Source: Anadara kagoshimensis (lineage: Eukaryota; Mollusca; Bivalvia; Arcoida; Arcidae). From it: DNA of 64,000 bases. Below are positions 3,083-50,982 of the stretch, one piece after another (position 1 is the stretch's first letter; every line of letters begins with the position of its first letter). Below the pieces are notes generated by a model. The model did not search any database, was not told where the DNA came from, and was given only the letters and a program-made list of their open reading frames with translations. Both the position numbers and the translations under genes were made by a program. The stretch spans positions 40,290,514 to 40,354,513 of the forward strand of contig CM037864.1 of assembly GCA_021292105.1 (NCBI GenBank), given 5' to 3'.

Positions 3083-3249
3083 TATGTGTAGCACACCATT
3101 CATTGTAATCTAGACTGTGAGGTAATGCTACTAATTTGTAGAAATCTGCATCTATAAGTCTCTCTTTTAAACACTGATCTTCTAAATACTGTCTATATTC
3201 CTCTTGTGTAGGCGGCGTAGGTGAATCTTTGTCTTTTCTTCTCCCCTTC
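3083..3249 (-). CDS. mob2: MOB2-like kinase activator, coding exon 2
   Basis: MOB2 proteins are non-catalytic adaptors. In known systems they bind the N-terminal regulatory region of NDR/STK38-type kinases and modulate them in competition with MOB1. The exon encodes KGRRKDKDSP, a Thr/Pro stretch, QEEYRQYLEDQ, then DADFYKLVALPHSLDYNEWC and ATH, the spacer and first helix of the Mob domain; LPxxLDYNEW is the family signature. The 3' splice site reads TTTCAG (AG at 3251-3250) after a pyrimidine-rich stretch, and the donor is GTAAGT (3082-3077). The exon is 167 bp, enters in phase 2 and leaves in phase 1. The phase fits exon 1 exactly and restores a Gly codon. The charged KGRRKDKD head and the DYNEW form fit MOB2 better than MOB1 or MOB3. 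The later Cys/His zinc-site residues are not in this exon. The frame stays open upstream to an ATG at 3380, but that is intron. Confidence 0.92.
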
Positions 3250-3299
3250 CTGAAATTATACAGAACAGAAATTATAGTAACACCAATCTTAAATATAGC

Positions 3300-3515
3300 T
3301 CTCACAAAATGGTAAAAGTTTCCAGAGCACCCGGCCTTATTTCCCTTGTGGAAGGTCATGTGTTTAACTTGGTTTCCCAATTTTCAAAGTTTTTTTTTTT
3401 TTTTTTTTTTTTTTAACTTTACTTTGGGATTGTGATTTGGACATGGATTGGTATGTTAGTTTTAACTTTGCTCTGGAATTGCAATTTGGACATGGATTGG
3501 TATGTTTGTTTTTGA
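3300..3515 (+). repeat. dispersed repeat D copy with T25 run, next to exon 2
   Basis: It contains agagcacccggccttatttcc, a tgtttaacttggtttcccaa block, ttttcaaag, an uninterrupted T25 run (3390-3414) and two tandem copies of the aatttggacatggattggta block. It lies only about 50 bp on the intron side of the exon 2 acceptor, so it fills the region just upstream of the branch-point zone in the sense of transcription. Confidence 0.7.
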
Positions 3516-4613
3516 CTTATTCAACATGTCTAATTGTCTAACATATGAAAATTTGAAATTTAAACAGTTAAACAGTTTGATAGTCAGATATTTATGTTGA
3601 TTTTTTATGCTACTTCATCCAGCTAGACCCACACTACAAATGAAAATAACGATGACAATAAACAGTGTGTTGCAGTGTAGTTCGTCTGTGTACAACTTGA
3701 TAGCCAGAACAACCATCTCCATTTTATTATGACTGAACATTTACAATACCTCAAAACCAAGATATATGCTGACATGCACTACCTTGTTTTGGTAACATAA
3801 TGTTTTTATTTTATACGGCAATCCATTTCATTACCTCTGGCACAAATACAAATTATATTAAAACCCTTTATCAAAAGTTAGCTTAGGAAATTGCTTTATT
3901 TTCTACAAGAAATACATTATATAAAGTCACAGATTCTTTGGAGTCATTTCTCAAAACAATCAAGATTCCCCAACACAATCTGAAGATACAAGTTCACCCA
4001 ACTTTTTTGTTGTATAATGCATATGAGGATACACATGGTATATTCCAATATGTCCTTATTAAATATTTGTAGCCTTTTACCGATAAAATACAAAGTTACA
4101 ATTTGTCTATCAAATAAACGTAGTATGAATATTTCAGGGATATGCCTGACTGAAACCCCCAAAAAATTATCACTTTCATCTCTAACAGAAATCTGTAATT
4201 TTACAGTTTATAAATTTAGAGAAATCATTCATCTAAATTCACTTGATGTTCATTCTTCGATCAATAAACACAAATAACAAAACGAGAAAAATATGAACTT
4301 TGAAACGTATCATCATCGCTTTACAAAAGACCCGTACATTGTGGACTCGCTCACCTTTATAAAAATACACAGCACGAGTTAGAGAGAGACAGAGTTGAAG
4401 GTATATTAGGCAATTAGTAAAAATCTCTTGTCAATTCTCTTACATAATCAGATTAATCACGTAAATGTGTTTAAAAAAACAGACACTTTAATGTAGGTAA
4501 TTGATTGAATACACCTGAGAATGAAGCATCATTAAGGGAAGACGTGTCTAAATTATCATGCTGCAACAGTCAACTTGAAATGTTTTATGTTATATAGGTA
4601 CAATTCAGAAGTT

Positions 4614-4698
4614 ACCTGTTGATTTTAAACGTTTCAAGTCGCTTCAATAATAATTAGCCAAAAACAACTGTTGATTTTAATTGTTTCAAGTCATTTTA
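4614..4698. repeat. two-copy tandem duplication
   Basis: The block ctgttgattttaaacgtttc aagtc at 4617 recurs as ctgttgattttaattgtttc aagtc about 53 bp later. Confidence 0.7.
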
Positions 4699-4944
4699 AA
4701 AACCACAGTTAAAAGGCAATTAAATCAATTTTATGCAATGTGTACATAAACCATCCTATATGGTAATTATCAGTCAGCTAGTTAAAGATGGATTGTGCAA
4801 TAGAACTAACTACTTGATGCTGTGCTTACAAGACTATTATTACAATTTAGAATCTTCTGATGTTTAAAACAAATTATTTGAATCCTTTTAACAAACAACT
4901 TTTTTTTTCCATTACAATTAACATATAGCTAGCTGGGAAAGTGT

Positions 4945-5085
4945 GGTTTCAATGTGTGTTTTCATCTTAGTTGTGTCTTGTTTTTGTTAATTTGTTGTGA
5001 TTTGTTCTTTGTTTCAATATGTGTTATTTCATCTTAAATTGTGTCTTGTTTTTGTTCATTTGTTGTAATTTGTTCTTTGTTACTT
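4945..5085. repeat. about 67-bp tandem duplication
   Basis: Two copies of a TG/TTTG-rich unit follow one another. Each begins tttcaat(g/a)tgtgt and contains ttgtgtcttgtttttgtt and an atttgttctttgtt end. Confidence 0.75.
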
Positions 5086-5126
5086 TAGCTATTTCTAGGT
5101 ACCAGTGCATTTTGTATATATATATA

Positions 5127-5274
5127 CAGTAAAACCTGATATTGTGACCAACTCTACATATAGAGACCACATGTTCATTAAGACCCCTTTGCTTCACATT
5201 TCAACCAAAAATAACCTCTATATAAAGAACACCTGCCTATAATGCCCATAGTTTCACATTTACTGGTTTTACTG
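5127..5274. mobile_element. TA-flanked MITE with CAGTAAAACC ends
   Basis: The element starts CAGTAAAACC and ends GGTTTTACTG, a perfect 10-bp terminal inverted repeat. It is flanked by TA on both sides (5125-5126 and 5275-5276), giving 148 bp. Internal text of the type 'tctatataaagaacacctgcc' matches the MITEs at 36615 and 62563. A TA duplication and CAGT ends are typical of Tc1/mariner/pogo relatives; that assignment is an inference. Confidence 0.8.
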
Positions 5275-5359
5275 TATGTTATTAGCTGTGTATATATTCC
5301 ATATGAAACCCCTTCAAAAAATTCAATATGAAATGTAGCATTTGGACTGACAAGAAGGG

Positions 5360-5512
5360 GAGACAGAATATCAGAAAACACCAAACCTTTAATTACATTC
5401 AAATATTTAGCATGCTGCAATAGACTCCAACTTGGACCAGGGAAGGGGACCCGCCCGTCAGGACCAGAATATCAGAAAACACCAAACCTTAATCACATTT
5501 AACCATTTTGCC
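5360..5512. repeat. about 101-bp imperfect duplication
   Basis: The sequence agaatatcagaaaacaccaa acctt occurs at about 5366 and again at about 5467, with diverged but alignable text after it. Confidence 0.6.
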
Positions 5513-6559
5513 TTCCCCACACTCCACTTGACCATATGTGATATAACACAAAATTAATTTGTGGTATGAAAGAGAACGACCTCTACAAAATGTGAACCCT
5601 TCTGTAGAAGGAGCATCATTCATTAATCTAGCCAGAATGATAATTCTGTGTCAGTTTACTGATAAAAGATAATACAAGACTCTGTTCTTATCTTACCTCA
5701 TCATTCAACAGTATTGTGTTAACAATTTGGTCTCAAGGATTAGATGCTCAGTATCAAGAAAGAAATCTTATTCTATTCTTTAATCATTCATCATCAAAGA
5801 CGGCTCATGATAGGTGATCTTGTCAACAATGACATGTGTATGAAGGTTCAAAATGGGAAATGCTAAAAGCTTCTACACAGAAATTTACCCAGTATGTGTC
5901 TTTTCATGATGTTTGTATAGGAGTGATATTAAGGCAGTCAGTTCAAAGACCAATATAACCATTGACATTCAACAGCAACTGACTAGATGAACATTTCCAA
6001 TCAAACAGAACATGAAAGGCTATCTACTTGAGTAAGTGAGGATTGTTATAAGTTATGTTTTCCGGGTCTTATCCATCTTTACATGGAGCATGTTGGGGTT
6101 AATTCAAATATGACAAATATTACTTATATGAAATTTAAATACTTTTAATCTTTTATCATCTTAATAAGATCATCATCATCTATGATAATAAAAATAAACA
6201 TCAAGAAGAAAACTGCCAAGGGCTGAAAAAATTTATGATAAAAATAAAAATATCTCCGAGTGTCATAAAAACAATATGACTGAAATGACAAGAAAAATTT
6301 ATCAAGTGGAAAGATACAATGTTCACCTTGCTGTAAGATAATACTGATTAATGATTCAGTATTCCTTAAAGCCCTAACATATCAATAAACCATCAGGAGG
6401 TTTTGGTATATATACAAATCTAGTTCCAAAAATAGTCAAGTAAAAACAAAAATTTGGCTCCAACTAAAGCAAAGTTACAGATGAACTCTTTAAGACATGC
6501 TATGACAGCTGCTATTTATAACAATTTTATTAAATATAGAAAAGTGACCTTGGACAATT

Positions 6560-6626
6560 ATTTTAACCCACTAGGCCAAAGACGAAGATGAAGCTATTTT
6601 AACCCACTAGGCCAAAGATCAAGCTT
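6560..6626. repeat. 36-bp tandem duplication
   Basis: attttaacccactaggccaa followed by aga(c/t) occurs at 6560 and 6596. Confidence 0.75.
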
Positions 6627-7420
6627 TATACTTACAGGATAAAATATCTGGAAAAACTCATAACACACGTCTTCATTCCACAAGTATAAATCCCAAATAT
6701 AAAAGTCCAATACCCAAAATAAAAGACAACTGATGAAAACCACTTCAAAATTTAAGAGCCTGAAAATCACTTTTTAACTGAAACATTACTGGTACCATAC
6801 ACTAAAGCTTCACAATTAAACATCTAGAGCTGAACTTCAGAAGTACATCTAGAAATGATACCATCTTGATAATAGTTGTCCTCCCTTTGTCTGTGTCATC
6901 AGAGAATATGAATAGTAAGATAGTCATCACCATATACACCTATTGAGGAAAGGATATAAAGGAAATGAGATGTGAATTCAGATAATCATTGATACATTAA
7001 TTAATGAAGTTTGATGTAGGTCACAACTAATGACACAAATCATGTATATTATTAACTTCCCCCCTGAATTGACGACACACATGACTTATCTTAAGATTTT
7101 TGGTCAATGACTTTCTCTATTCTTTCTTTGCCAAGTCAGTGCCATCACAATTGTCCTGTACATATTTTATAATATATATGATGTACATATATGTTTTATG
7201 ACTGTCAGATATAAACTTTATATTGTTCTATCTCCCAAAACAGAAACACATATCATATATGTTTCTTTTATATTACAACATTTCTGCTGATTTAGCATTT
7301 AACATGTTTATATAAACTGTGGTAACATTTTTTTTCAGTATTACAAAGTGCCCCCTCTTTTTCTAAACATACACATTTTTCATACAACAAACAACTTAAA
7401 CTTTAGATAAATACAAACAC

Positions 7421-7485
7421 CAAAGTGGCAAAATGAATGCAAAAATCAAAGTGGCAAAATGAATTCAAAAATCAAAGTGGCAATT
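7421..7485. repeat. 26-bp tandem repeat, about 2.5 copies
   Basis: caaagtggcaaaatgaat(g/t) recurs at 7421, 7447 and 7473, exactly 26 bp apart. Confidence 0.8.
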
Positions 7486-10400
7486 GTTGCTGGATATAGA
7501 AATGAATCCAATGATAAAATAGTATCCATTGGCACTGTGATGTGGTTGTTGTACTATTGGAGGACCTCTAACAATCCAACTTGCAACCCATGTTCCATCA
7601 GTAAATTGTAAATGCTGTTGGCATCATGCAACATCATTGTAAATGACACTGAATGGGCAATTACTCAAAAACAACAACTTAAGTGTTGACAATGTCCAAT
7701 TTATAATGCAGTCAAATCTTTTAAGTTAAATGGTTAAAGTTTAAAAGTGTTTTAGTTAATTATTTAACTTTGTATAATATATAATACAAACTCCAGATGC
7801 AATTAGTTCATGTAAACATATCAAAATGGGTGTGGCAACAGATTGCTGCACATCATGTACTCAGCAACATTGAGTTTAAACAAACCAAACTGGTGGCATA
7901 GATGAAATGTATGCAATCATTAGTCAGAGTTAGAAACAACATACCAAGAGATATTTTATACAAACCAGACAGAAAAATTTCAAAAAACTTCAGTTTTTCA
8001 TAAACAAAGATGGCTTCAATTACAAAATTTTTGAGTTACGCCCATATTTGAAAGCTTAGTAAATTTAATTTTAATAGTAATACTTACAAAGACTTAAGTC
8101 CCATGTTTGGATATAGCTTTTTAAACATAAGTAAAGATAACTTTATAGTTCTAAATTAAAACCAGTTTAGAAGCCACATTTCTACGTGCAAAATTACCAG
8201 TAGATAAAAAGGTTTGATTATGTTCAATATACAAAATGTGGCACAGCTGTGAAGGCGATGATAAGTAAAACACCTCCATGAAACAAAATCCACATTTCAT
8301 CGATTTATTCGATTTTATTTTTATTATATATAGGTATATATAATGTATATATATACAGCCAACATATCAACATAGTGTGTAACATCAAAAATGAGCGCTG
8401 TATGTGGTATGTGACAATGTAGAAATCCATATCTTCTATACATTTTAATTACAGAAATACAGTATTGAATAGGTGACAGCTGTCATCTAATTTATCATTT
8501 GAAGATGAAACTCAAATTTTGGATCCTTGCTGCCCCCGTTTTCCATACATTTCTTCTAGAAATTTCCATCAACAAAATGCTGACATGGAAATTTTTTCAA
8601 AAATATTCCATTTCCCAACAGATTAATATATAAATGGAATATTTCCACTTCCCAAAAGGTTATTTTTTCTAATTCCAGTACTTGGTAACAAGAGGAGCTA
8701 TCTCTTATTTCAAAGTATTACCTATATATATATGTCTGGCAATGTTAAGATCAAAATACATTATAACAATAACTACATCTCTGGCATATTTTGGAATGCT
8801 ACTTAAAACTATTGATATTACTAAGAGTCATTACTATTGCTTTTGGAATCATTACTTGTGTTTTCATTTGAGGTAAGGAGTTGTCAATTCAATAGTTAGA
8901 ACTTATTGCATTATGCATTTTGTTTTGGCACCCCCCCCCCTTCTCTACCTTTATTAAATTCTCCCACTTGCAATAAAAGTTATCTTCATTACACAAAGGG
9001 GTAGAGTTTGCAAAAGGTTACATACATGTATTACCCCGGAACATACATAAAATTCTGAATTTGAATTCAGTGTCATAGTGTGATATATTTTGAATTGCAA
9101 ATGCCAAAAACATTTCTTAGTTGCAAAAAATAATCCCCCTTCAACACTTAATACATTATAAAGCTACATTGGTCAGTTACTTCATAATGTCTTAATTTTA
9201 AAGACTTACAAAATTATTTTGTATATATTCAGGTTTTGTCAAACTTATAAGGTGATTTAGTTGTAAATGTGTAGTTGAGTACAATGGGGTAAAATCCTAA
9301 AGTGGTATAACATTACCCCACTGTGTTGTTAAATGACGTGATTGTCTGACAATTATGTATATCCATGTACACAGTCGGGTATAACTATGTACCCAGATAA
9401 AACACAATACACCTAATTGATTAAAATAGCTTAAACGTGACAGATAACAAGCTAATATATAATTAAAATACTTATATTTAACAGCTAAATACATCATTTC
9501 AGGGTGATAATGTTTTTTATGAATATAGGTTGCATACTGATCTATGTATAATAACTGTCAACAACAAGCAAAAACAAGATATCTGTGGATCATGGTTCTT
9601 GCCTGAAAAGTTGATTGTTTCTGTCATTATTATTTTAATTGTCCAGTTCTGTTGGTAGACTTGAGTCTCGAGTAATTGCTTTTAACACCCCAAACTTGTG
9701 CAAAGACAGTCAGTTCTGGAATAGTGAAAGAAAAACCAGTGTCCAGACAAAACTGCTGACCTTCAATAAGCAAACTTGAATAAGGACCTGACCAGATTGA
9801 GCCTAAGCATTGAGAGGCATGCATTAGATCACTTGGTCAACAAAGTCCCTCTGTTGGTAGAGCACTGCTTTGTTGCTTTGATGACTTAAGCTTTAGGTAG
9901 TAGTTTTGCCAATGCTTATCCTGAAGAAAAATGTTTATCTATTTATTGATGTATTGTAATAGATGCAACGGTTTGTCAAGGAAAACCTGTTATGCATCAT
10001 CCCAAGAGACCAGTTAAAACAGAAATTACAGTAAGCTACTTTTAAGATGGTAAATTTGAAACTGCAGTCATTTTATAAAATTGCTTTTGCAGAGTGTATC
10101 CCCAACACCCTAATCTAATTGAATATTAATTATACAGTATACTTTCTGAAAATTTAGATAGTTTGGTGCTATTGTATTCCATTTGTTAAATCTACAGGTT
10201 AAAGTGTAACCTATATTAAAACATTTTTTTTTTTAAAAAAAGAACTAAAAATATACTGTAACACCTTCCCAGACAACTTTTTAAATGTGTAGTTTTAACT
10301 GAAATATCAAGTTTGACTGGTTTTAAAGTTGTATACCATAAAATATAAATAAATGTGTAAACATGAATATCAGTACATATCTATTTTCATGAATTTTATA

Positions 10401-11269: not shown

Positions 11270-11405
11270 GTTTCAACAAATTTAAAATTATTACTAGCCA
11301 AATTTCCAAATTGGTAAAAATATAGTCCTTTAAAAGTATTTTTCATAAATTTAGCTTTCTTTAAGAAAGCATTTTAGAGAAAATAGTAGCCAATATGGTG
11401 ATTTC
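11270..11405 (-). repeat. dispersed repeat E, inverted fragment
   Basis: On the minus strand it carries the order 'ttggctacta', 'cataaaattt(a)gc' and 'tttggaaatttggctagtaa' seen in the plus-oriented copies at about 21540-21715, 28227-28400 and 42735-42910. Class unknown. Confidence 0.55.
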
Positions 11406-11876: not shown

Positions 11877-12278
11877 TGGTTGGTTGGTTGGTTGAATATT
11901 GCTTAACGTCGCATCAGCAATTTTTCAGCTATTCGCGACGAGAACTATTTTATTAATCTCTATGGATTAATCTATGAACAATTTTATGTATGCATGTGAA
12001 GTGCGAGTGTGTTGTATGGTCTGCCTTGTACTAGCGCGCACTCAGGGCGACTTTAACGTGCTAGCTCACAGAGTCAGTACGCCGCAGACAAGCGTACCAC
12101 TCCCCCAGTCCATTATACTGATACTAGGTGAATCAGTAAAGGCCAAGGGCAAGGAAAATTCACTTTTATAAGGAAAATTCACTTTCCCACATGTGGTCCG
12201 AGCGGGACTCGAACTCACAGCGGTGAGAGACCCTGGATTTGAAGACTGACGTCTTATCCATTAGGCCACCGCGGCCTC
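11877..12278 (-). mobile_element. tRNA-derived SINE, family B (full length, with TSD)
   Basis: Read on the minus strand, the element opens with a tRNA-like head: A-box-like TGGCCTAATGGATAAG and B-box GAGTTCGAGTCCC. The body reads toward a 3' tail of (AACC)n, seen on the plus strand as ggttggttggttggttg. A 12-bp direct repeat TGTTAAAGTGGA flanks it perfectly (11865-11876 and 12279-12290). The unit is 402 bp. It landed in the first copy of an older tandem duplication, whose second copy starts near 12379 (aatttcaatgaaatgtgaga). The short plus-strand ORF inside it is noise. A second, diverged copy is at 46472-46814. Confidence 0.93.
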
Positions 12279-12861
12279 TGTTAAAGTGGAATAACTTGTG
12301 GAATAACATGAATTTATTCAGATTTTGGTTTTATCCTGCTTCTGAGTACATTTGGACAACATATAATTATTTTTTTGTAATTTCAATGAAATGTGAGAAT
12401 AAGCCTGAAGTGTGAAAATGTTAAAATGGACTGAAGTTTTGATTCTACCCTGCTTCTCAAGTACATTTGGACAGTGTGTATAAAGGTGAAACGGTTGGTT
12501 AAGTAATAAGTATCATATATACCAGGGCAATACAACTGAGAAAGAGTGATGGAAATCTTTTATGTTTATTATCTGTATCATATAATATGTTTCTATTTAC
12601 TGGAGCAGCAATAATTTATCATAGCCCCACTAGCCATAATCATACAAGACAACAATATATGTATGGCCTGATCAGTCCACTAGCTAGCTAGCCGAAGGTC
12701 AGGTGTTCAGGTCAGCTGTATACATAATGGGACATTGAACTGTATCAGTAACAGGTGTATATGTACCAGAAACAAGAGGCCCATGGGCCTGATACGCTCA
12801 CCTGATAACTAATGGCTAGCTGATAGATTTAAAGAAAACATAAATACTAAACCCCAATGAC

Positions 12862-15270
12862 TTTTTTTTTTACATCATGATAACCGTTGTATTAATACCT
12901 ACAACATTCTAGTATACATGCCTATACAAAAAGTTAATAGTTTTCAAGATAATAAACCATTTCAGTATTGTTTCACATCTGTGACCTTGACCTTTGAACC
13001 CATGACCTTTTTCTATACATCAAAATGATCGTTGTATCGATACCTACAACATTCTAATATACATGCCTATACAAATGTTTATAGTTTTCGAGATAATTAA
13101 ACATTTCGGTATTGTTTCGCATATGTGACCTTGACCTTTAAACCCATAACCTTTTTCTATACATCAAAATGATTGTTGTATCAATATCTACAACATTCTA
13201 ATATACATGCCTATACAAAAAGTTTATAGTTTTGGAAATAATTAACAATTTCGGTATTGTTTTGCATCTGTGGCCTTGACCTTTGAACCCATGACCTTTT
13301 TCTATACATCAGAATGATGATTGTATCAATACCTACAACATTCTAATATACAAGCCTATACAAAAAGTTTATAGATTTTGAGATAATTAACCATTTCTGT
13401 ATTGTTTCACATCTGTGACCTTGACCTTTGAACCCGACCTTTTTCTATACATCAGAATGATCGCTGTATCAATACCTACAACATTCTAATATACATGCCT
13501 ATACAAAAAGTTTATAGTTTTCGAGATAAATAACCATTTCAGTATTGTTTCGCATCTGTGACCTTGACCTTTGAACCCATGACCTTTTTCTATACATCAA
13601 AATGATCGTTGTATCAATACTACAACATTCTAATATACATGCCTATACAAAAAGTTTATAGTTTTCGAGATTATTAACCATTTCGGTATTGTTTCGCGTC
13701 TGTGACCTTGACCTTTGAACCCATGACCTTTTTCTATACATCAAAATGATCGTTGTATCAATACCTACAACATTCTATTATACATGTCTATACAAAATGT
13801 TTATAGTTTTCGAGATAATTAACCATTTCTGTATTGTTTCGCGTCTGTGACCTTGACCTTTGAACCCATGACCTTTTTCTATACATCAAAATGATCGTTG
13901 TATCAATACTTACAACATTCTAATATACATGCCTATACACAAAGTTTATAGTTTTCGAGATAATTAACCATTTCGGTATTGTTTCACATCTGTGACCTTG
14001 ACCTTTGAACCCATGACCTTTTTCTATACATCAAAATGATCGTTGTATCAATACCTACAACATTCTAATATACATGCCTATACAAAAAGTTTATAGTTTT
14101 CGAGATAAATAACCATTTCAGTATTGTTTCGCATCTGTGACCTTGACCTTTGAACCCATGACCTTTTTCTATACATCAAAATGATCGTTGTATCAATACC
14201 TACAACATTCTAATATACATGCCTATACAAAAAGTTTATAGTTTTCGAGATTATTAACCATTTTGGTATTGTTTCGCGTCTGTGACCTTGACCTTTGAAC
14301 CCATGACCTTTTTCTATACATCAAAATGGTCGTTGTATCAATACCTACAACATTCTATTATACATGTCTATACAAAATGTTTATAGTTTTCGAGATAATT
14401 AACCATTTCGGTATTGTTTCGCGTCTGTGACCTTGATCTTTGAACCCATGACCTTTTTCTATACATCAAAATGATCGTTGTATCAATACTTACAACATTC
14501 TAATATACATGCCTATACACAAAGTTTATAGTTTTCGAGATAATTAACCATTTCAGTATTGTTTCACATCTGTGACCTTGACCTTTGAACCCATGACCTT
14601 TTTCTATACATCAAAATGATCGTTGTATCAATACCTACAACATTCTAATATACATGCCTATACAAAAAGTTTATAGTTTTCGAGATAAATAACCATTTCA
14701 GTATTGTTTCGCATCTGTGACCTTGACCTTTGAACCCATGACCTTTTTCTATACATCAAAATGATCGTTGTATCAATACCAACAACATTCTAATATACAT
14801 GCCTATACAAAAAGTTTATAGTTTTCGAGATTATTAACCATTTCGGTATTGTTTCACATCTGTGACCTTGACCTTTAAACCCATGACCTTTTTCTATACA
14901 TCAAAATGATCATTGTATCAATACCTACAACATTCTAATATACATGCCTATACAAAATGTTTATAATTTTCGAGATAATTAACCATTTCGGTATTGTTTC
15001 GCGTCTGTGACCTTGACCTTTGAACCCATGACCTTTTTCTATACATCAAAATGATCGTTGTATCAATACCTACAACATTCTAATATACATGCCTATACAA
15101 AAAGTTTATAGTTTTCGAGATAATTAACCATTTCGGTATTGTTTCACATCTGTGACCTTGACCTTTGAACCCATGACCTTTTTCTATACATCAAAATGAT
15201 CGTTGTATCAATACCTACAACATTCTTATATACATGCCTATACAAAAAGTTTATAGTTTTCGAGATAATA
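12862..15270 (+). repeat. 145-bp tandem array, about 16.5 copies
   Basis: The GTGACCTTGACC landmark, with single-base variants, recurs at 12981, 13125, 13270, 13415, 13558, 13702, 13847, 13992, 14137, 14282, 14427, 14572, 14717, 14862, 15007 and 15152. The steps are 143-145 bp and almost all exactly 145 from 13847 on. Each unit includes tacaacattctaatatacat, an agtttatagttttcgagata block, and TGACCTTTGAACCC followed by ATGACC. Variants recur every fourth unit (see findings). Confidence 0.97.
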
Positions 15271-16118: not shown

Positions 16119-16279
16119 ATTGTCAGATTTAACATTTTATTTTTCCTAGGAGTTCTGTTATTGAAATACAATGTACCTTTTATAATATCAAAATCGACTT
16201 AAGAAATGTTAGCAATAAATCCAGGGTAAAAAAATTGAAATTGATAATGTTGATCTTTTATTTATCTCTTTTCATTAAA

Positions 16280-16510
16280 AACAAACATACCAAACCATGT
16301 CAAATTCACAATCCCAAAGCAAAATAAAAACTATGAAACCTGCAAATGAAGTTATATACATGAACTTCTACCAAGGAAGTGAGACTGGGTGCTCTGGAAG
16401 GGTAACCATCCCCTGTTTAGCTAACTAAAGCCAACACATGCGTAATCAAAATTGAGAATGAAAGAAACATGGAACTATGGAATGTCAAACATATCCAGGG
16501 TAATTTCGGA
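16280..16510 (-). repeat. dispersed repeat D, inverted copy
   Basis: The order on the plus strand is aaacaaacataccaaaccat, cacaatcccaaagcaaa, a tgaacttctaccaaggaagt block, gggtgctctggaagggtaac, then gaaagaaacatggaactatg and catatccagggtaatttcgg. The same order occurs at 57165-57400 and in part at 29205-29400, which defines a family of roughly 250-300 bp. Confidence 0.75.
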
Positions 16511-19330: not shown

Positions 19331-21289
19331 GTACACTAACTTTTAAATTTTTAAATAAGGAACTATTCTAAAGATCCGTATTTCACAATTATATCATCTT
19401 AAAATCAATATTCAAACAAGAACATAGAAATCTGGCTCTGACTTAATCCTGTGTCAACAATTTAAAAGCAGAAAAAGACAAATAAAGCAATGTAAAGGGA
19501 AGAAAAACCAATAACAAATACACTTCTAGTAATCTCTAAAACACCAATTAGGCTTATTGAGCAAGAATTTTGTTTGAAAAGAGCTTTTTGATCTTGGAAC
19601 TTTTTATGTTATCTTGAAACAAATAAGGAAATATCATGATGATGTCATCGATATAATTCTAAGATCTAGTGCTAATTTAGGGCACCTTGCTATTTAGAGA
19701 AACAAAAGCAGCAGAACAAAGACAGTTGACGCCCACTTCACAAACATAAACCCCACTACAAGTGAAGTGGTAATGCTAAATAAAGGAAGTTAAAACAGTC
19801 TTGTTATAAGATGATGTATAAATTTTCTCCTTATCTCTACAATACATTACTATAATATCCGGATGTTATAGATTGGGATATTGGCAATCTTAAGTTACAA
19901 TGGTAATCTTAAGTAGCCAAATTTGCTCTTGCACTTAATGTGTTTATGTACATTTGTTTTTCTTTATGGCTCCTCATATTTATCAAATTTACACTTTTGT
20001 TTATGAGAATTTAATTAGTTTTTATCAGAAGAAAAAAAATATCCAAACAAAATTACCTAGCTACACATGTATGAGAGAGATAAAGGATCAAGTGTTTCCA
20101 ATCTGAGTAGACCAATACGCAAGAAATTTAATAAACGATTTTATTTAATCTGCGTTTCCATATCGTATAACTCATATAACTCATGTATTTACCGTGATAA
20201 GGCAAGTCAAAAGATCAAAACAATTGAAAACATATAGAGAAAAGCATATATCTTTTTAATACGTGTACTTTTTTTAATTTTGAACTAAATTAAAATATGC
20301 TTTTGAATGCAGTGGTTCAATCTTTAGACTGCATTATAAATTAACTGTCATAGAAATACATGTCCCAGTAGTCCCCAAGGACAATATAGTAAAGAAAGCT
20401 AGATTTTAGGTTTTAATATAAAAGTTTGAACTTCAATGCAGAATGAACTAATTGCAATATTATGTAATATCATTGCATAACCTATTTATACAAGTCAGGT
20501 AGAAATGTGTCAACTCTTAGATTTTAATTAAAAACCATTAAGAATATAATGATAATAAATAAATAAAGTCCTGGTACTGCTTATTATTCAAACACCACAA
20601 GGTTCCAATCTCGTCCATTGGAAGTTTTAACACCAAGTCTCTAACCGCTGATATTATTACATAATTTTTAAGTCGAGTATTAAAAAACTACTGAAAACAG
20701 GAAATAAAAACAGAGAAATTAAAAAACCCCAAAACAGTGATACACAATCACATAAAACTACAGCGTGGAGACTAACCAGCATGAGAACTCTAATCTACAA
20801 ACAGGAAATAGAGAACATATCACATAAAACAAATTACCAAGTCATACAATCACCAAAAGCTTGAAAAAACATCTCCCATATGGTGCTGTTAATTAATTCT
20901 GATAGCATATAAACCATCAACACAAATCAATAATTTCCTCTTGTGTTTTGCCAGATTCTTTGACTGTTCTGGACTGCTTAAGGCTTAATAGAACGTAACT
21001 GACATATTTGTTGCAATATTAATTTATAATTACACAATAGTTCTTCATTGATCGGCTTATCAAGACAGTAATTATCAGTCACATTATAGAGAGATAGTTA
21101 TCAGAAAGTTTTCACCGCTTCATTACTAGTACATGTACTACCTGACTTAACTCACAGAGTACAGATTAAAACCAATAGATACTAAAACACTCTGGGAACT
21201 CAGAGAGCTAATCAATACAGACAGTATTAACTATATATTGTACCTTAGGCTGCTGACCGCAATATGTGTTTATTGTAAAGGTTTGGAAA

Positions 21290-23973: not shown

Positions 23974-23976
<3 letters not shown>

Positions 23977-26780: not shown

Positions 26781-27507
26781 ATGATGACCTCGGAGTATAT
26801 CGGGGTGTTCCACACCCAAGTCAACAATAATACTCCCCAAATATTTATATATTATGGCAGACAAGGGGAATAAAAAGATGAGCAACCTTTACTGTCATAC
26901 AGTAGTCATAAAAATTTTACTGTTTCTCAATAAAATTGTCTGAACTGAAATAAATACTACATCATTTTATTAGTTCTGTCTTTCAAAGCTTTCAAATCTA
27001 AAGTGCAAGAAATATTGAATTTATATAACAAATAAATAAAGAGTGGTCAACCACACCCCTATACAAGTAGAAATTTCCTTCATAAAAATCAATAAATCAT
27101 CTCAAATTCAATTTAAGACTTGGGACATATTTTAATCTGAAGTGTATAGGTTATATATAGCTCTACACTTCTGATAATTCAATTATTGACCATGGTGACT
27201 TCCAAGACAGTTTATAGTAAGAATCCATTTATGACGTGAATGGATTTCTTAAATAAGACAAATCGCCAAATAGATGATTAATCACAGCCTCTTGATTTAT
27301 AACTTATTTTTCTTCTCTTTAAAAACAAAGATTGATTAATTGATTTATAAAATTGGGTTTAATATCTTAGCTTTTTATATGTTAAAGTTAGACATATTCA
27401 GATATCAGGAAGAAATTTGAAGTTAAACCATCTATTGACTTAGGGAAATGACTACAGTAAAACCTTGTCATATTGCCCCTCCTAAAGTTGAAATCCAAAA
27501 TCAATGT

Positions 27508-27822
27508 CGAGTTGAGTAATGGTGTTTAACGTCAGAGTAAAGAATATTTTACTTATATCGAGATGTCACCAGCTATAGACGAAGGTGCAGAAGTTTTGCC
27601 TGTGCATTGCACTAACGGCATTATACAGCAGGGTTCTTTATCGTGCCAAGCCTACCTAAACCTTGCTTATTTTATGTTCCCATTCGAAAAAACCATGACT
27701 TTTATTTTGTAATGCAGAGTGCCTGGTGAAAGAACAGTCACTACCCACTTTCAAGTCTTGGGTCAGAACAGACCAGAGATCGAACCCACGACCTCCCACT
27801 TGCGGAGCAAGCAGATGTAACA
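27508..27822 (-). mobile_element. tRNA-derived SINE, family A
   Basis: On the plus strand it reads gagttgagtaatggtgttta acgtc, then a ttacttatatcgaga core, gcattatacagcagggttct, and near the end the complement of a B-box (gatcgaaccc) with a disturbed A-box region (ggagcaagcagatgtaacag). It abuts an older CAGTAAAACC-type MITE fragment (27455 onward). Its right end is altered, so no TSD is clear. Confidence 0.88.
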
Positions 27823-31159: not shown

Positions 31160-31530
31160 ACCTTAAAATGCACCCAACCTTATTTCCCTGGTGGAGAGTT
31201 GAGTAATGGTGTTTAACGTCCCAGTCAAGAATATTTCGCTTATATCGAGAGACGTTGCCAGCTATAGGCAAAGGTGCAGAAATTTTGCCTGTGCATTGCG
31301 CTGATGGCATTATACAGCAGGGTTCTTCATCATGCCAAGCCAACCGTGATATGGGACCTTGTTTATTTTAAGTTCCCATCGGAAAGAACCGTGACTTTCA
31401 ATTCATAATGCCGGTTTCCCTGGTGGAAATTCACATGTTCAACTTAATTTGCCAGTTTTCAAAGTTTTTAATACTTAGCTTTTGGGATTGTGATTACTTG
31501 TAAGACATGGACTTGTATGTTTGTGCTTGC
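31160..31530 (+). repeat. dispersed repeat D split by a SINE
   Basis: Left part: cttaaaatgcacccaacctt atttccctggtgga. Right part: tttccctggtggaaattcac atgttcaacttaatttgcca, then the cttttgggattgtg block. Removing the SINE (31196-31414) and one copy of the duplicated site rejoins a continuous D element. Confidence 0.85.
31196..31414 (-). mobile_element. SINE A, 5'-truncated, with 13-bp TSD
   Basis: It is the tail-proximal part of family A: gttgagtaatggtgtttaac, the ttcgcttatatcgagagacg core and gcattatacagcagggttct. It stops at ttcataatgccg, before the tRNA-like head. TTTCCCTGGTGGA occurs perfectly on both sides (31183-31195 and 31415-31427). Loss of the tRNA end with an intact tail is as expected for incomplete target-primed reverse transcription. 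Confidence 0.92.
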
Positions 31531-36795: not shown

Positions 36796-37604
36796 CATAC
36801 AGTATATTCTTCAATATAAATGACAAAACCTAACAAAGTTAATTATTAAGCAAATGCAAAGTTAAATAATATGCAAATTATTCCACCTTTTGAGCATTAA
36901 ATTTTAATTAAAACAAAAGATTTATGGTCAGTGTTAAATACACATTATATCTATTCTGTTAGGCAGACCTGTCCAGATTTAATTAATGTCCAGTAGTGGT
37001 AATAGTCGACCAGGTAGACTATTGTCATACATGACAAAAACTCAAGAAAAACATGTGTACCATATCTACATAATTATGTATATATACTTCTTGTACATTA
37101 ATATGTAATTCTGAAGACAATTTACATCTATCATACAAAAATATCTGCCTTTGAACATTAATTTTGATCTTACTTATACCTTTTCTGATGGAAAAATTGA
37201 ATTTTGATGTCACAATTTAATACACCTGAAGTTTGCGTTTGATGTAAATATCTTTTTTGAAGAAAATTCTGATGAAAGAGAATGATGTTTGATGTCAGTG
37301 TGTTAATATATACAGATATATACATACAGATTGTAATTAGTGCAAAAAAAGATGACAGTTAAACCATGATTATCTAATTTAACAACCTAAAAAACATGAT
37401 TTTGACCTTTAAAATGGCTGTTTAACACATGACAATATTTAGTAGACTCATTTTTACTTCATCATTTATTAAAATTTATACATGTATATCAATTATTCCA
37501 ACCTTCCAGAAACTAAGTAAGCTGCAATCAAAGACTAAGAAACCTGCAATCAAAGACCTTCACTATATTGTAATTATGTATCATGATTATCCAAGCACGT
37601 AAGA

Positions 37605-37939
37605 GTTGAGAGTCGAGTAATGGTGTTTAACATCCCAGTCATGAATATTTAACTTATATCGGTACATTGTCAGCTATAGGCAAAGGTGCAGAAATTTGAC
37701 CTGTCATTGTGTTGGTGGCATTATACAGCAGGTTCTTTATTGTGCCACACCTACTGTGATACCAGACCTCGTTTATTTTAAGTTTCAATCTGAAAGAACT
37801 GTGACTTGCATTTCATAATGCTGAGTGATTGGCTAAATAACAGTTCCTACCAACTTTCAAGTTTTGGGTCAGACTCGGTCCCACAGACCTCTCACATACG
37901 CAGCGAGCACTCTACCAACTTAGCTACTGCAGTGGTTCT
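37605..37939 (-). mobile_element. SINE A, full length, with 12-bp TSD
   Basis: It runs from gttgagagtcgagtaatggt through a ttaacttatatcgg core and gcattatacagcaggttct to the complement of a tRNA-like head (gagcactctaccaacttagc). AAGCACGTAAGA (37593-37604) and AAGCACATAAGA (37940-37951) flank it, one mismatch in 12. The length is 335 bp. Confidence 0.93.
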
Positions 37940-42689: not shown

Positions 42690-42910
42690 TTTAAGAAGTT
42701 TTTGTATAAATCATATTCAAATCACTATCTAGGCTTCCGTTATTGGTAGTCAAAATTATCATTGGCTACTATTTCTAAGAAATCTTTTCAAAAAGTAACT
42801 TATTTTAGGCAATTTGTGATAAATTTAATATCCCTAAACTATATTTTCACAAATTTATATATTTTGGCTTTATTTTTAAATGATTTTCAAATTGTGGAAA
42901 CCTAGACTAC
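42690..42910 (+). repeat. dispersed repeat E copy after T-runs
   Basis: T-rich tracts (42662-42682) precede ttggtagtcaaaattatcat tggctactatttct, cttttcaaaaagtaacttat and attgtggaaacctag. Confidence 0.65.
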
Positions 42911-43518
42911 TGTTACTATAGAAAATCTAATTTGTACAATTAATGAACATACATAATAAAATCACAAAACTGATTAACTGATTAACACCTAACAACATTC
43001 ATTGTGACACAACATGACATCATCTACGACACTGTATCTAAATACAAACTGAATCAAAACATAATATTTAATTCAAAAGTAATTATTGCTGCTGTATAAA
43101 CAACATTTTACGCCTACCAGTACGCGTCTGCAATATGTAATGTAACAAATTTATTACTTAAATAGTTACTGTATTCAGATCATGCAAGAGTAGTTATGCA
43201 TAAAAAAATTGTTCTGACTTGTTCAATAAATTCAATATTTCATCAACATGCATGGTGTATGTTAATATTACGTAAACACTTGTGTATGCAGATAGTTTCT
43301 TTTGTAGCCTATACATTTGTATCTTTACACAACCCCTCATACAGAATGTACTCCCTTCAGAGATTAACAGTAATTACATTCATACATAAATCACATAAAT
43401 ACACAAGCTTACTATATAACAGATCTATTATCAATATAATATTGACTAAAGTATGTGTTCATTATCTGTTATAAAATATCTTATGTAATCAAACATCACA
43501 CTACATCTTCTGTATACA

Positions 43519-44062
43519 GGTCAATATTCAGTCCTTTACACAACTGTAACAACATCACATAACATTGTCAGTATGAATGATCAGGATTTATTTCAATATT
43601 CAGTCTTTTACATAACTGTAACAACATCACATAACATTTTCAGTATGAATGATCAGGATTTATTTCAATATTCAGACCTTTACACAACTGTAACAACATC
43701 ACATAACATTGTCAGTATGAATGATCAGGATTTATTTCAATATTCAGTCCTTTACACAACTGTAACAACATCACATAACATTGTCAGTATGAATGATCAG
43801 GATTTATTTCAATATTCAGTCCTTTACACAACTGTAACAACATCACACAACATTGTCAGTATGAATAAGCAGGATTTATTTCAATATTCAGTCTTTTACA
43901 TAACTGTAACAACATCACATAACATTTTCAGTATGAATGATCAGGATTTATTTCAATATTCAGTCCTTTACATAACTGTAACAACATCACATAACATTGT
44001 CAGTATGAATAAGCAGGATTCATTTCAACATTCAGTCCTTCACATCACAAGCATGAAATTTC
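43519..44062 (+). repeat. 72-bp minisatellite, about 7.5 copies
   Basis: Each unit contains tcaatattcagtcctttaca caactgtaacaac, then atcacataacattgtcagta and tgaatgatcaggatttattt. The unit is 72 bp, a multiple of three, and lacks a stop in one frame, so it reads as 24-residue repeats beginning MNDQDLFQYS for 169 codons. Unit-to-unit changes include amino-acid-changing ones (ND to NK, VLY to VFY, IVS to IFS), and there is no signal, domain or splice context. I treat it as non-coding. Confidence 0.93.
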
Positions 44063-44264
44063 TAACAAGACATCACAAGTGACAATGAGGTATTGTGTAA
44101 TAAAGGGCAATAACTCTGTCAATTTGAGTTCACCAGTTACAAAACACTTTACTCATGAAGCATGAAAACTGTACCAACACTTATAACTAGGTCAAAACTG
44201 TAACAGCACCCAAATCAACATTATAACAGCACCCAGCATCTGACAATGAAGTCAACATACTATG

Positions 44265-44400
44265 TTTTCATTCCATGTAGCCAAAATTGCCACCTGCTAC
44301 CAATTTCTGAGAAATTCTTAAAAATAGGAACCTTTTTTATCAAAGAATTTTCACACGTTTAGGAAATGTTTTTTTATTATGGAAACCTAGACATTGTAAG
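44265..44400 (+). repeat. dispersed repeat E, shortened copy
   Basis: ttccatgtagccaaaattgc, ctgctaccaatttctgagaa and ttatggaaacctagac match the family E ends; the middle is reduced. Confidence 0.6.
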
Positions 44401-44735
44401 GTCAGCATTATAAGATTATATCAATATCCAACATCTTATGACCAGGTCAATATCAAGTTTGTTGTGTATATTTCTATGGTACAACAAAACCATAAAGCTA
44501 CAGGGAATACAGTTTAGTTCCATCATTAACCGCAATCAATGCTGAGACACAACAATGATATACTTGTCTCAAACCAAACCAAACAAATCAACAATATATT
44601 ACCCAAATGACTAGGATTTTTTATGCTACATGCATAAGATATGTCAGTGTTACATAACAGCATGTGTCAAGTACACATATATGTATAAATGCTGTTAATG
44701 TTTTTTTCACAAAACGATCTAGAAATTTTTCTGAT

Positions 44736-44838
44736 GAAGAAGAACTTTTTTAGTGAGTGCAACTTCAATAATTCCATTACATTATTGAAGAAGAACTTTT
44801 TTAGTGAGTGCAACTTCAATAATTCCATCATATTATTG
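44736..44838. repeat. 51-bp tandem duplication
   Basis: gaagaagaacttttttagtg agtgcaacttcaataattcc starts at 44736 and again at 44787. The two copies differ only near their ends. Confidence 0.92.
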
Positions 44839-45726
44839 CTAAGTCTCGGCCAGTAAAATTCGAAAACATAAAGGGTTAAACTTAAACCTTGAAAGTTACA
44901 AGCCACTGATGTGTAAAGCGTAAATTCAGTAGGATACCAAGAGAAAATCAAATATTCTGCAAGAAGACAACGAACCCTAATTCAATTAAAAATAAACATT
45001 AGATGTATTCTTCCTCATATTGTCTGAACAGTGAGTAGAAGGTCAAAGTAATGCCAATCCAAAAACAATAAAATCAATGACATTCATGTCAATATAACCT
45101 TCAGACTTGTATGGTTATCCAATCACTTTCCTATCGCTCAATAAAACAGACAAAAAAAAAACAATACCAACATCAGATAAAGAGTGCTGCATCAAAAGAA
45201 GATACTGACTATAAAAACGACATAATGCCCTTAATCAAACTAATCAGATGAACTGCTTCACCTTCCTGTGACTTTGACCAATAACACCTTAATCACCTCT
45301 CTAACTTATTAAAGGAACCCATTCTTATCCAAATACATATATAAACAGGAAAGAAAAATCAATGTTAATGAGAACTGAAGTCATACCACCTGGATCTAGC
45401 TTCTTCAATAACCTTAATTGTAGTTGTGTTATCTAGAAACCAAACTGATACATCTTAATGTGTACAAACTAAATAAATTAATTTTACTATACTTCAATGG
45501 ATGTACACACATGTGTAATCTGTTTACATTCTTGGAACAATAATTAATTAGTTATTAAAAGATAAGTAATGAATAAACTTAGAAACATAGTTTGTTTTAC
45601 AACATGAAACCTTATGCTTATTTTCATACATAAATCATCACAATTTACAACAAATAGTAAAAGCTGTATAAATAATTCTTCATAAGCTATTCCTAAGATT
45701 TAGGACTTTCTGTATGTTCTATACAA

Positions 45727-46060
45727 GAGGGCCTCTGTGGCAAAGTGGTCTAAAGTACATGTTTACAAGTTACATATTACAGTGCCGCTCACTCTATATA
45801 ATTGTCATATTGCCAGTCATGCCTTTTATGTTCCCACACTGGCCGCCATCATGGTACTAAAGCAACTAATGATGTACTTGTGTTAGTGACATCATTAAAT
45901 GGCACAATTCAGGCCGAGTTTTAATTCTTTTTGTGTGTAATTCAAGCATGCTTGGCCTTTGTCGGAACATTCTTGGTGTGGCCCGCGATCCGTCAATTGA
46001 CAGAATTTTAACTGGGATGTAAAACTCCATTGATCCACTCTACCCTTCTATTAAATATTT
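45727..46060 (+). mobile_element. SINE C-related, badly decayed
   Basis: gcctctgtggcaaagtggtc taaagta looks like a tRNA-type A-box region, and the distal ttttaactgggatgtaaaac tccattgatccac resembles the 3' part of family C. The middle is unfamiliar, so this may be two fragments. Confidence 0.4.
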
Positions 46061-46471
46061 GAGCCAGTTTACCCATAAACAAGATTTTGTTACCCACCAT
46101 TGCCTTTTCTGGTCTTAATTTCTTTATTCAACTTTTGATGGTTTGGTAAAAGAAGTGAAATTTTCACATGACTTATGACACTAACGTTACTAACAAAAAT
46201 CTCCACAATGACAGCAACAGAAACTGACAATAAGTTAACACCTACACTAACAGCGAGTAATTCCTACATTTGTACAGATCTTGGTCACAACAAAAAACAA
46301 CAAAACCATGTGATACTGTTGTTGCAGTTCATGTTTGTGTAAAATTCAGAATACAACCGATATATAATGCATGTATCATTAAAACTATGACTTACAAATA
46401 GAAATTGAGATTCATACAAAGTACATAATGTACAATAAAAAGCCAATGTTCCAACTTCCAAGGGCACATAG

Positions 46472-46814
46472 AAGCTGCGGTGTTCTAATGGATAAGATGT
46501 CAGTCTAAAAATCCAGGGTCTCTCATTGCTGCGAGTTTGAGTCCCGCTCAGACCACATGTGAGAAAGTAAATTTTTCTTGCCATTGGCCTTTACTGGTTC
46601 ACCTGGTGTCAGTATAATGCGACTGGGGGAGTGGTATGCTTGTCTGCGATGTACCAACTCGGTGAGCTAGCACTTTAAAGTCGCCCTGAGTGTGCGCTGG
46701 TACAAGGCAGACTAATAAACACATTCGCACTTCACATGCATATACAAACTTGTTCATAGATAAAGCCAAAGAGATTCATAAAGTAGCTGAAAAATAGCTG
46801 ATGTGACATTCAAC
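46472..46814 (+). mobile_element. SINE B, diverged copy
   Basis: A tRNA-like head (ttctaatggataagatgtca, then B-box GAGTTTGAGTCCC) is followed by cagaccacatgtgagaaagt, cactttaaagtcgccctgag and agctgaaaaatagctgatgt. This is the same order as the minus-strand copy at 11877-12278. The AACC tail and a TSD are not visible, so it is older. Confidence 0.88.
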
Positions 46815-48060
46815 ATTTGTAGGGAAGATGACTCAGACTTGTTAATTGTTTAACAAACATTAAACTTGACCTATAACTTATCCAATATTAAAACTGCATA
46901 ATTCCACAAAAGAATTCAAAGCTATAAGGCTAATGTAACTGACATGTACAGACTGAACAGAAAGTAGAAACCTGTCATCTCAGTTTACAGAGAGGGGGAA
47001 GTCATTTTACACTTTACAATTATTACAATAAATGATTCACTAGAATGCATTATGCATGTAATGAATACAAGAGTGCAATCATTTCAACATAATTGAAAAA
47101 TACATACATTCAAAAATCAATTTAATGTAAAAACATATAAATTATGCATTGTAGTTAAATAACAGTATGGAGAGGCTTCACTTGATCACAATGTTGATTT
47201 ACCAAGAAATTCTAACATATCATATTTAGCATAAAATATGATACCTCTTTCAAAAGCACACCCTACTGGTTTAATGAATTACTTAAAAAAAGAGAAAAAA
47301 AAAACAAGACTACCATTTCAGTACTTTGATCATTAACTAGTGATATACAATTTTCTGTTAACACCAGGAATTGAAACTGAAGCTGGGAAAGATGTACAGT
47401 ATATCAGAAATGTGTGGAATAAAGTTTCAGTAATTTGTCCAGAAAAAAAAAACAAAAACAACTTAATCTTTCCATGATAATCCATTACCAGTACATATAT
47501 ATTTACCAAAAGAAGTATTATGTATCAAATTCCCCTGCCAATTATTTGACCTTGTAATAATGATTTATAGCATAAATACTGAAATTTCAGACCACAAAGT
47601 GCTGCTAACATCAATAAACCAGCAAGTGTTAAAATTATCTTGTCTAAGGAATACACAATACTTTATACATTTAAGGTTAGAAATTTTGATGGATCTAATG
47701 TAACATGTCCTACAAATTGAATTTACTGGAAATATACATTCTGTATATTAGTATTCATTCTAGGATTTTTCAGAGGGGGTATTTTCAAAAACACAACATG
47801 ACCTCAATATTTTTGCATTCATGTAATGCTAAATATGGCCCACTAAGGTCTTACTTATGGGGTCATTTGGCAAAATAAGGGAACAATGTCCCTTCTAGAA
47901 GGAACATTGCATAATGCATATATACAAAGTAAACTTGTTTCAAGTCAGAATAGACATTTCAGCATGGACTAAATGAAGGGATCCATCCTGTCTTATTTGT
48001 GCTAATAAGTTGAAATCTCAGCAAATATCAAGAAAGGGTTAGAGTATTGGTGTTTAACAA

Positions 48061-48236
48061 AGAATTAAATGTTCTTAAACCAATAACACAGAACTTGAGG
48101 TTCTTAAACCAATAACACAGAATTCAATGTTCTTAAACCAATAACACAGAATTTGATGTTCTTAAACCAATAACACAGAATTCAAGGTTTTTAAACCAAT
48201 AACACAGAATTCAAGGTTCTTAAACCAATATCAAGG
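48061..48236. repeat. 29-bp minisatellite, 6 copies
   Basis: gttcttaaaccaataacaca + gaa recurs at 48071, 48100, 48129, 48158, 48187 and 48216, exactly 29 bp apart. Each unit holds one CCAAT pentamer. There are no unique spacers, so it is a minisatellite and not CRISPR-like. Confidence 0.96.
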
Positions 48237-48239
48237 CAA

Positions 48240-48400
48240 TAAGTTCTGGATTGGTAGAAGGAACTGGAGAAAACCATAAAAAACACAAATCTTTGGCAAG
48301 ACAAAGTACAAATTTACTCATGCTAGGATCTGATTCGAGTAGAATTAGAGCCTAGGTTATCCTTGAGCTGGCATTATAGACCACTCAACTACCGATGCCA
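48240..48400 (-). mobile_element. SINE C, inverted diverged copy
   Basis: Read on the minus strand, the complement of gctaggatctgattcgagta gives a family C 'gatcctagc' junction. The complement of aactggagaaaaccataaaa gives the 'ggtttctcca' block. Confidence 0.55.
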
Positions 48401-49527
48401 GAAAAATAGAGAAAGGGATTTTTTCTTTACCTTGTTATTTTACTTGATGGCCAAATGTCAGTGAAATATGACCAAGTAATGTTCATTGTTGATCTGTGAC
48501 AATGTGGCTAGTCAGTGTGTTCACACAAAGTATTATATTTTAGTTTCCGCTCTTTGGTCATTTCAGTGTGTCTAGCATTGGTCTTGGAAACAAGTTAGGT
48601 TTTATCCAAACATTGCTAACAGCACTTCCTGCCAAGATTCAACAGAAATCTGTTTAAAGTATATAGACTTAAAAAAACATTCTATTATTATCTCCACAAG
48701 TGAATATCATGTGCCAATACCTATTAGATTCAAAGAAGGTTAACAATGAAGCTTGCACCTTTATTAACCAATTACACTGTCTGGCTATTTGCAAACAAGA
48801 AGTAAACATCATCTTGGAAAAAAGGCAAAGAGACTTTGAGATAGTGTAAGAATAATGAATTACTACAATTACTTGTCTGTTCTAATTCAAAGCAAGATCA
48901 ACACAACAATCTTTGATAAAATCAGTTTATAGAAAATTGCAAGATAGAGGGTTTCACATTAGTCAAAACCTTCAATGAGACTGACAATGACATACCCTAT
49001 TCCTTATGTTCTAAAGAACCCAATAGACCAGCTATACCACTGACACATCGAATCTGATATCCCTATAAGATTAGCAGGGGCCCAGTAGCCCAATGGGTAC
49101 TAAAAATCAGTCTGAGCCCCTTAATGTTTACACATTCTTTTATGAAGTGAGCTGGGCCCCTAACTCAAAACAGTTAAGCTTCATCCCTGCTATAACAGGC
49201 CTATATGACACAAACAAATCAAGGGACCCTGAAATTATGCCATGTAAACCCAAATAACAACAGGATTACAGGGAAACCTTGAAAAGACAGGAGTCTGACT
49301 ATCTTAGTAAGCCCTTTGAAATGAAGAAGTAACTTGTAAAGTATTGCTCTCTAAAGTCTCTTTTGTAAGAAGTATACATTTAAATCAAGAGTTCTAAGTT
49401 GGTAGAGTGTGTCTAAATTTTGAAGTCCCAGGTTAGAAACTGTTTGGCCCCTTATTTTGATTCCTAACACCATCAAAAAGGAGATGAAATATAGCAGCCC
49501 AGTTGGTAAACTACAGGTATATCAGAC

Positions 49528-49600
49528 CCGGTAGTTCAGTTGGTAGAGCAATTGGCTTTAGTGTTGAAGGTTCCAGGTTTCAAACCCTAGTCCAGCCCTA
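49528..49600 (+). mobile_element. tRNA-like head of a SINE, isolated
   Basis: GTAGTTCAGTTGGTAGAGCA (A-box) and GGTTTCAAACCC (B-box) are spaced as in a tRNA. The acceptor stem cannot be closed and the body continues into unrelated sequence, so I call a SINE head rather than a tRNA gene. A more worn A-box-like block (agttggtagagtg) lies at 49397. Confidence 0.55.
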
Positions 49601-49608
49601 TAGTGCAG

Positions 49609-50279
49609 GATTTATTGAAGGGGGTTTTACGTCTTAGTAAAGAATAATTCACTTATTTCCAGATGTCACCATCTATACATAAGGTGGCAGAAATTTGTGC
49701 TCAGGGCAGTGTGCAGGGAGTGAGTGAGTAATGGGGTTTAACGTCCCAGTCAAGAATATTTCACTTATATCGAGACGTCACGAGCTATAGGCCAAGGTGC
49801 AGAAATTTTGCCTGTGCGTTGCGCTGATGGCATTATACAGCAGGGTTCTTTAGCGTGCCAAGCCCACCGTGACACGGGACCTCGTTTATTTTCAGTTCCC
49901 ATTCAAAAGAACTGTGAATTTCATTTGGTAATGCAGAGTGCTTGGCGAAAGAACAGTCACTACCCACTTTCAAGTCTTGGGTCAGACCCGGCCGGGGATC
50001 AAACCCACGACCTCCCATTTATGGAGCGAGCACTCTACCAACTGAGCTACCACAGTGGTGCAGTGTGCAGGGAGAGTTCTTTAACATGACATGCCTACTG
50101 TGGAGCATCGATTTTTAAAGTTTCTTCAGAAAAATCACATTACTTTCATTTCTGAATTTATGCCAAGTGCTTGACGAAAAAACAGTCACTATCTTCTTTT
50201 TAAGTCTTGGTTGGGATTGAATCCATAACCTACCACATACAGAGCCAGTACTCTACCAACTGAGCAACCATAGTGGTGT
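49609..50279 (-). mobile_element. old SINE A interrupted by a younger SINE A
   Basis: The outer copy is 49609-49720 plus 50075-50279: tattgaagggggttttacgt ctt, ttcacttatttccagatgtc, then after the insertion 'agttctttaacatgacatgc' and finally ctctaccaactgagcaacca. A degenerate 12-bp flanking repeat (CCTATAGTGCAG at 49597, CCTTTAGTGTAG at 50280, two mismatches) may be its own TSD. Confidence 0.85.
49721..50059 (-). mobile_element. SINE A, full length, with 15-bp perfect TSD
   Basis: This is the cleanest copy in the window. It contains ggggtttaacgtcccagtca, the tttcacttatatcgagacgt core, ggcattatacagcagggttc and a complete tRNA-like head (complement of gagcactctaccaactgagc, with gatcaaaccc as B-box complement). 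GCAGTGTGCAGGGAG flanks it exactly (49706-49720 and 50060-50074). The length is 339 bp. Confidence 0.95.
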
Positions 50280-50965
50280 CCTTTAGTGTAGCTCCAGAGT
50301 TGATCCTGCATTTTTCCTTCACACGCTTACACTGACATCGAACAAGTATCAAGACAAACAACAAGGAAAACTCATGTGACCATGTGCCGAGCTAAAACCA
50401 AAGCAAAACGACCGTGGATTTGAAGGCCAACATCTTAACCACCTCACTTTCTGCAGACTCTAGTCACTGTTTGAGTTACTCGGTACAAATTCCTCAACTC
50501 AATATGATATTACCAATACCCTTATTTTTTTCTCATTATTTATTCACCAAGTCAATCTATTTTTAGAAATGATTCAAAAACTGTGTTTAATGAAACTGGA
50601 GTTGATCCAACAATGCATACCATGTCACAAATATTATTTCAGTCGCAAAAGTAAACAAAGATTTTAAAAAAATTGACAGACATAATCACATATCCTTCTT
50701 GTTTATCATCCATGACACTGACAGTCAGTAGGGTCTTCTTGGGCAGGCTAACCAAGTTCAACTGTGGCATGGTATGACAATGGAAATTCGAAATCAGTTC
50801 ATTGTTAATCAATGAGCCACGTGTGTTTACTTTCACAAGCACCGGTATTTTTCATTCATTGAATACAGCTCAGTCGATGAGTCTTGAATGATAACATGAT
50901 AAAGATAGGAAAAATCGATGTCAAATTTTTTATGCGTTTAGCACATAAAATATGCGCAATCTTAC

Positions 50966-50982
50966 CCCATAAACCAATCCAT
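50966..50982 (-). CDS. mob2: MOB2-like kinase activator, coding exon 1
   Basis: On the minus strand ATG GAT TGG TTT ATG GG is followed directly by the donor GTAAGA. It encodes Met-Asp-Trp-Phe-Met and two bases of a Gly codon, completed by the first base of exon 2 (3249), giving MDWFMGKGRRKDKD. From general knowledge, vertebrate MOB2 begins with the same short pattern (Met-Asp-Trp-Leu-Met-Gly-Lys), which is why I accept such a small exon. The start has A at -3 and G at +4. The segment is 17 nt (phase 2), and the phase match with exon 2 is exact. It sits beside a CpG-richer, promoter-like region. No competing coding exon was found nearby. Confidence 0.9.

Follow-up and report, generated by a model that had tools for sequence, protein, structure and literature searches.

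The minus strand of the window, the whole 64,000-nucleotide stretch of DNA analysed here, very probably holds the 5′ part of an animal MOB2 gene whose 17-nt start exon is joined to the rest of the coding sequence across a 47.7-kb intron (Table 1). Both exons of the original prediction were found in place: a start exon of MDWFM + GG with a phase-2 GTAAG donor, and a second exon that opens in the matching phase after TTTCAG and gives the joined peptide as claimed. The predicted separation of 47.7 kb agrees with the gap measured in the window sequence.

Table 1 Features of the candidate MOB2 locus, in window coordinates.
Feature	Position	Strand	Description
Probable 5′ UTR and promoter-proximal region	50983-51200	minus	Limits are the analysts' choice; CpG observed/expected 1.00 over 50983-52000
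Exon 1, coding part	50982-50966	minus	17 nt; reads ATGGATTGGTTTATGGG = MDWFM + GG
Intron 1	50965-3250	minus	47,716 nt; CpG-depleted
Repeat-matching stretch	3320-3515		From self-comparison; contains in-frame ATG 3359
Exon 2	3249-3083	minus	167 nt; phase 2 in, phase 1 out; reads KGRRKDKDSPTPPTQEEYRQYLEDQCLKERLIDADFYKLVALPHSLDYNEWCATH
Exon 3	1713-1617	minus	Reads TISFFNHVNLMYGVISEFCTQEGCSSMSGPGN + GT

Exon 1 ends on two bases of a glycine codon and is followed directly on its 3′ side by GTAAGATTGC, with the phase-2 donor GTAAGA beginning at 50965. The acceptor TATAATTTCAG (TTTCAG) precedes exon 2, its AG ending at 3250. Exon 2 opens with the missing third base of that glycine codon and then continues as KGRRKDKD; GTAAGTATAA lies directly 3′ of exon 2. 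Sequence, phases and splice-site signals make a splice junction between these two exons the most likely arrangement. Upstream of exon 1, a stop codon (TAA 51030) lies in frame, with no in-frame ATG between it and the start at 50982. Five further ATGs occur within the 400 bases before the exon 1 ATG.

The original prediction named exons 1 and 2 alone, and to these we add exon 3, which ends at a GTAAGT donor whose first base is 1616. Use of GTGTAA at 1618, a weaker donor, would instead end the exon at 1619. Joined, the three exons encode 93 amino acids (MDWFMGKGRRKDKD...SMSGPGN; full product MDWFMGKGRRKDKDSPTPPTQEEYRQYLEDQCLKERLIDADFYKLVALPHSLDYNEWCATHTISFFNHVNLMYGVISEFCTQEGCSSMSGPGN), and the gene must continue past the window end after exon 3.

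Membership of the MOB family was seen in a comparison of the 93-residue product with the Pfam family PF03637 (Mob1_phocein), which it matched over residues 35-91 with an E value of 4.9e-18 and a score of 66.2 bits against a curated cut-off of 27. The match covers profile positions 2-58 of 170, the remainder of the domain lying beyond the window; the last 54 residues of exon 2 alone scored 17 bits (E 0.0061), under the cut-off. The zinc site of the MOB family consists of two cysteines and two histidines. In the product, the C-x4-C of EFCTQEGC aligns with MOB1, and the two histidines are expected in exons beyond the window.

For the class within the family, the yardsticks were provisional N-terminal sequences of fly Mob2, human MOB2, MOB1A, MOB3A and MOB4. 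Against these provisional sequences the product scored 103 bits with fly Mob2 (54% identity over 87 amino acids), 92.0 with human MOB2 (48% over 89), 62.8 with MOB1A (36% over 89) and 60.1 with MOB3A (50%, over only 50 amino acids), and gave no match to MOB4. The alignment to the human MOB2 yardstick, the start of which we take to be MDWLMGK, begins at residue 1 on both sides, and six of the first seven residues are alike; the fly piece used begins at the K after the exon join and is uninformative on exon 1. Common to the product and the human MOB2 yardstick are YLE, LP..D.NEW and FF.H.NL.Y..ISEFCT...C, and perhaps the MDWxMGK start; common to it and Drosophila Mob2 are K.RRKD, YLE, LP..LDYNEW.A.HT, ISEFCTQ.GC and GPGN. 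Of the residues aligned with these two sequences, 46-52% are unlike. MOB1A and MOB1B share the Mob1/phocein domain and supply the best PDB matches, but the MOB1A N-terminus used here (MSFLF...) is unlike MDWFMG. Among the MOB proteins compared, MOB2 is thus most likely the nearest, ahead of MOB1, MOB3 and MOB4, a class assignment that depends on the provisional yardsticks.

A comparison with the PDB (E ≤ 0.001) returned 18 distinct chain sequences, headed by MOB1B (5.1e-13). Yeast Mob2, the Cbk1 partner, came 14th among the 18 (5ncm_A, E 7.3e-11) with a match to query residues 21-90 that leaves exon 1 outside, and no animal MOB2 was among them. By itself this search gives MOB2 no preference, MOB1 ranking first. 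The predicted MOB2 start exon joined to exon 2 is supported by the family, the N-terminal layout, the phase, the splice-site signals and the CpG footprint described below.

In the literature text searched, none of MDWLMGK, MDWFMG, MDWLMG, MDWLVG and MDWLMR occurred, and a search combining MOB2, first exon, isoform and N-terminal matched a Neurospora furfural paper only. Neither exon, intron nor 'splic' appears in the main text of a paper on MOB evolution (PMC2684140). Six stretches of viral contigs fitted a pattern, and none of the six encodes a relative.

CpG content changes close to exon 1. With 32 hand-listed repeat intervals masked, the CpG observed/expected ratio was 0.23 in the intron (39,864 unmasked bases) versus 0.80 at 50983-64000; the corresponding GpC ratios were 0.94 in the intron and 0.98 at 50983-64000. 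When the sequence was divided once by the proportion of C residues that precede a G, the best break fell at 50322 (222 of 7,051 to the left and 247 of 1,917 to the right). Its support interval, 49470-50842, lies 140 to 1,512 bases downstream of the start codon, and none of 1,000 permutations of 500-base blocks reached its strength. Before dispersed repeats were masked, the break fell at 49714, inside such a repeat. At a resolution of about 1.5 kb, the break does not separate exon 1 from another start within that distance.

Methylated CpG decays over evolutionary time, and a transcription unit running leftwards through the window from about 51 kb would leave such a mark. We infer that the CpG boundary may be the trace of gene-body methylation that starts just past the promoter. 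In the Pacific oyster, according to PMC4378273, methylation climbs sharply past the start site and then holds a plateau along gene bodies. The same paper reports methylation of young repeats also, and of 54-58% of genes, so the mark is not confined to gene bodies and a given gene need not carry it.

A cluster of TGCGCA and CGCCATNTTG sites, presumably NRF1-like and YY1-like, also lies around exon 1. Three of the four TGCGCA sites in the window lie at 50953-51153 (total of four against an expected mean of 3.5). The sole CGCCATNTTG match of the whole stretch is at 51116-51125, and 10 of 100 shuffles contain one or more. As promoter support this cluster is post hoc and weak.

How specific is the start exon? 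We searched with MDW[LF]MG + GTRAG, a pattern written after the exon had been seen and modelled on the start taken for human MOB2, so that its figures express specificity and do not amount to a blind test. The window holds one match and no more at up to three mismatches, none of 100 shuffles holds any, and base composition predicts about 6e-8 matches across the 60.75 kb that lie upstream of exon 2. A generic exon of this kind, by comparison, is common: upstream of exon 2 there are 47 phase-2 ATG-to-GTRAG pairs on the strand, at 31 distinct donors, versus a mean of 46 (range 29-70) in 60 Markov sequences.

These pairs bear on the possibility that the 17-nt exon is one of several first exons of MOB2, with other intronic or upstream starts giving other N-termini. 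Their number provides ample candidates but equals the Markov expectation. Two of the 47 begin with MDW, and MDWxMG is read only in 50982-50966; the other MDW start, at 12113-12070, reads MDWGSGTLVC... and lies inside a dispersed repeat. Alternative first exons are favoured by the frequent presence of additional promoters in long first introns and by intron bins that are less CpG-poor than the rest when unmasked (0.59 at 4001-5000, 0.51 at 20001-21000, and up to 0.99 at 12-16 kb, where the satellite lies). On balance we consider such additional starts possible but rather unlikely. A long first intron is usual in kind, as first introns tend to be longer across a wide range of species, according to PMC2518113.

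Translation might instead begin just before exon 2 and make the far exon unneeded. The original prediction had warned of a spurious ATG at 3380; its actual position is 3359, the only minus-strand ATG in 3300-3420. The frame is open from the stop TGA 3386 through exon 2, and this is the sole in-frame ATG between that stop and the exon. It falls, however, within a weak repeat match (3320-3463, 69% alike to 16278-16399); 3411-3515 is in parts 75-84% alike to copies near 16.3, 25.4 and 25.9 kb. The extra residues also look, by eye, unlike the MOB N-termini used as yardsticks, and the TTTCAG acceptor downstream leads straight into the completed G and the K that the MOB2 layout calls for. We rejected this start as very improbable. 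That the 17-nt match is a coincidence, the true start exon lying elsewhere, is similarly hard to credit: the exon is very short and its junction is read from sequence, but the pattern is unique and its shuffled and expected counts are those given above, the phases agree and the CpG break adjoins exon 1.

Our preferred model is therefore of a MOB2 gene with the far start exon. Transcription would begin near, or slightly upstream of, 51.0 kb, the putative start site, and the short exon 1 would contribute five and two-thirds codons, beginning with the start codon. Once the 47.7-kb intron had been spliced out, exon 2 would finish the glycine codon to give MDWFMG-KGRRKDKD.... By analogy with MOB2 elsewhere, the protein would be expected to bind and regulate NDR/Tricornered-type kinases. 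PMC7096357 describes Mob2 of human and fly as a binder of Tricornered-type NDR kinases, with both activating and inhibiting roles reported, and as a competitor of class I MOBs. The role predicted here is taken from the MOB2 literature, and we saw no sign of a different one.

A broader reading, which we hold to be doubtful, would make the MDWxMG start exon an ancient separate unit common to MOB2 of distant animals, kept apart by the long first intron to let alternative promoters swap in other N-termini. The gene-structure reading is sound without new biology, and the gene itself is ordinary. Its interest is as a case in which the right protein start hangs on 17 coding bases some 48 kb off. The CpG footprint of gene-body methylation may help to place invertebrate gene starts from sequence alone and could aid annotators in choosing among tiny first exons.

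Other genes were sought in the window among its 25 open frames of at least 90 amino acids: ten of these, 97-124 amino acids long, matched no Pfam family at E 0.1, and the exon 2 frame entered the Pfam search as part of the joined protein. ARAGORN found no tRNA in the window, and Rfam gave no match there at gathering scores. A satellite-like array inside the MOB2 intron (12857-15269) consists of 16.7 copies of a 145-base unit, of which the last nine neighbouring pairs are 93-97% alike; its CpG observed/expected ratio of 0.95, versus 0.23 in the masked intron, suggests that it is perhaps young. A dispersed repeat family occurs at 27506-27813, 31191-31415, 37603-37936, 49721-50059, 54672-54905 and 57669-58095, with aligned parts 74-94% alike. 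Stretches from 50049 and 58089 on the minus strand fit a relaxed pattern of tRNA-like A and B boxes in the style of a SINE, though ARAGORN called no tRNA in them.

A second dispersed repeat is present in inverted copies, both intronic, at 11945-12279 and 46470-46786 (82% alike over 336 aligned bases). At 43489-44082, 7.3 copies of a 72-base tandem unit contain a plus-strand open frame of 197 amino acids that is probably mechanical, 72 being a multiple of 3. A CAGCAA-like array at 60128-60939 shows nested periods of 18, 57 and 75 bases, with several frames open on both strands.
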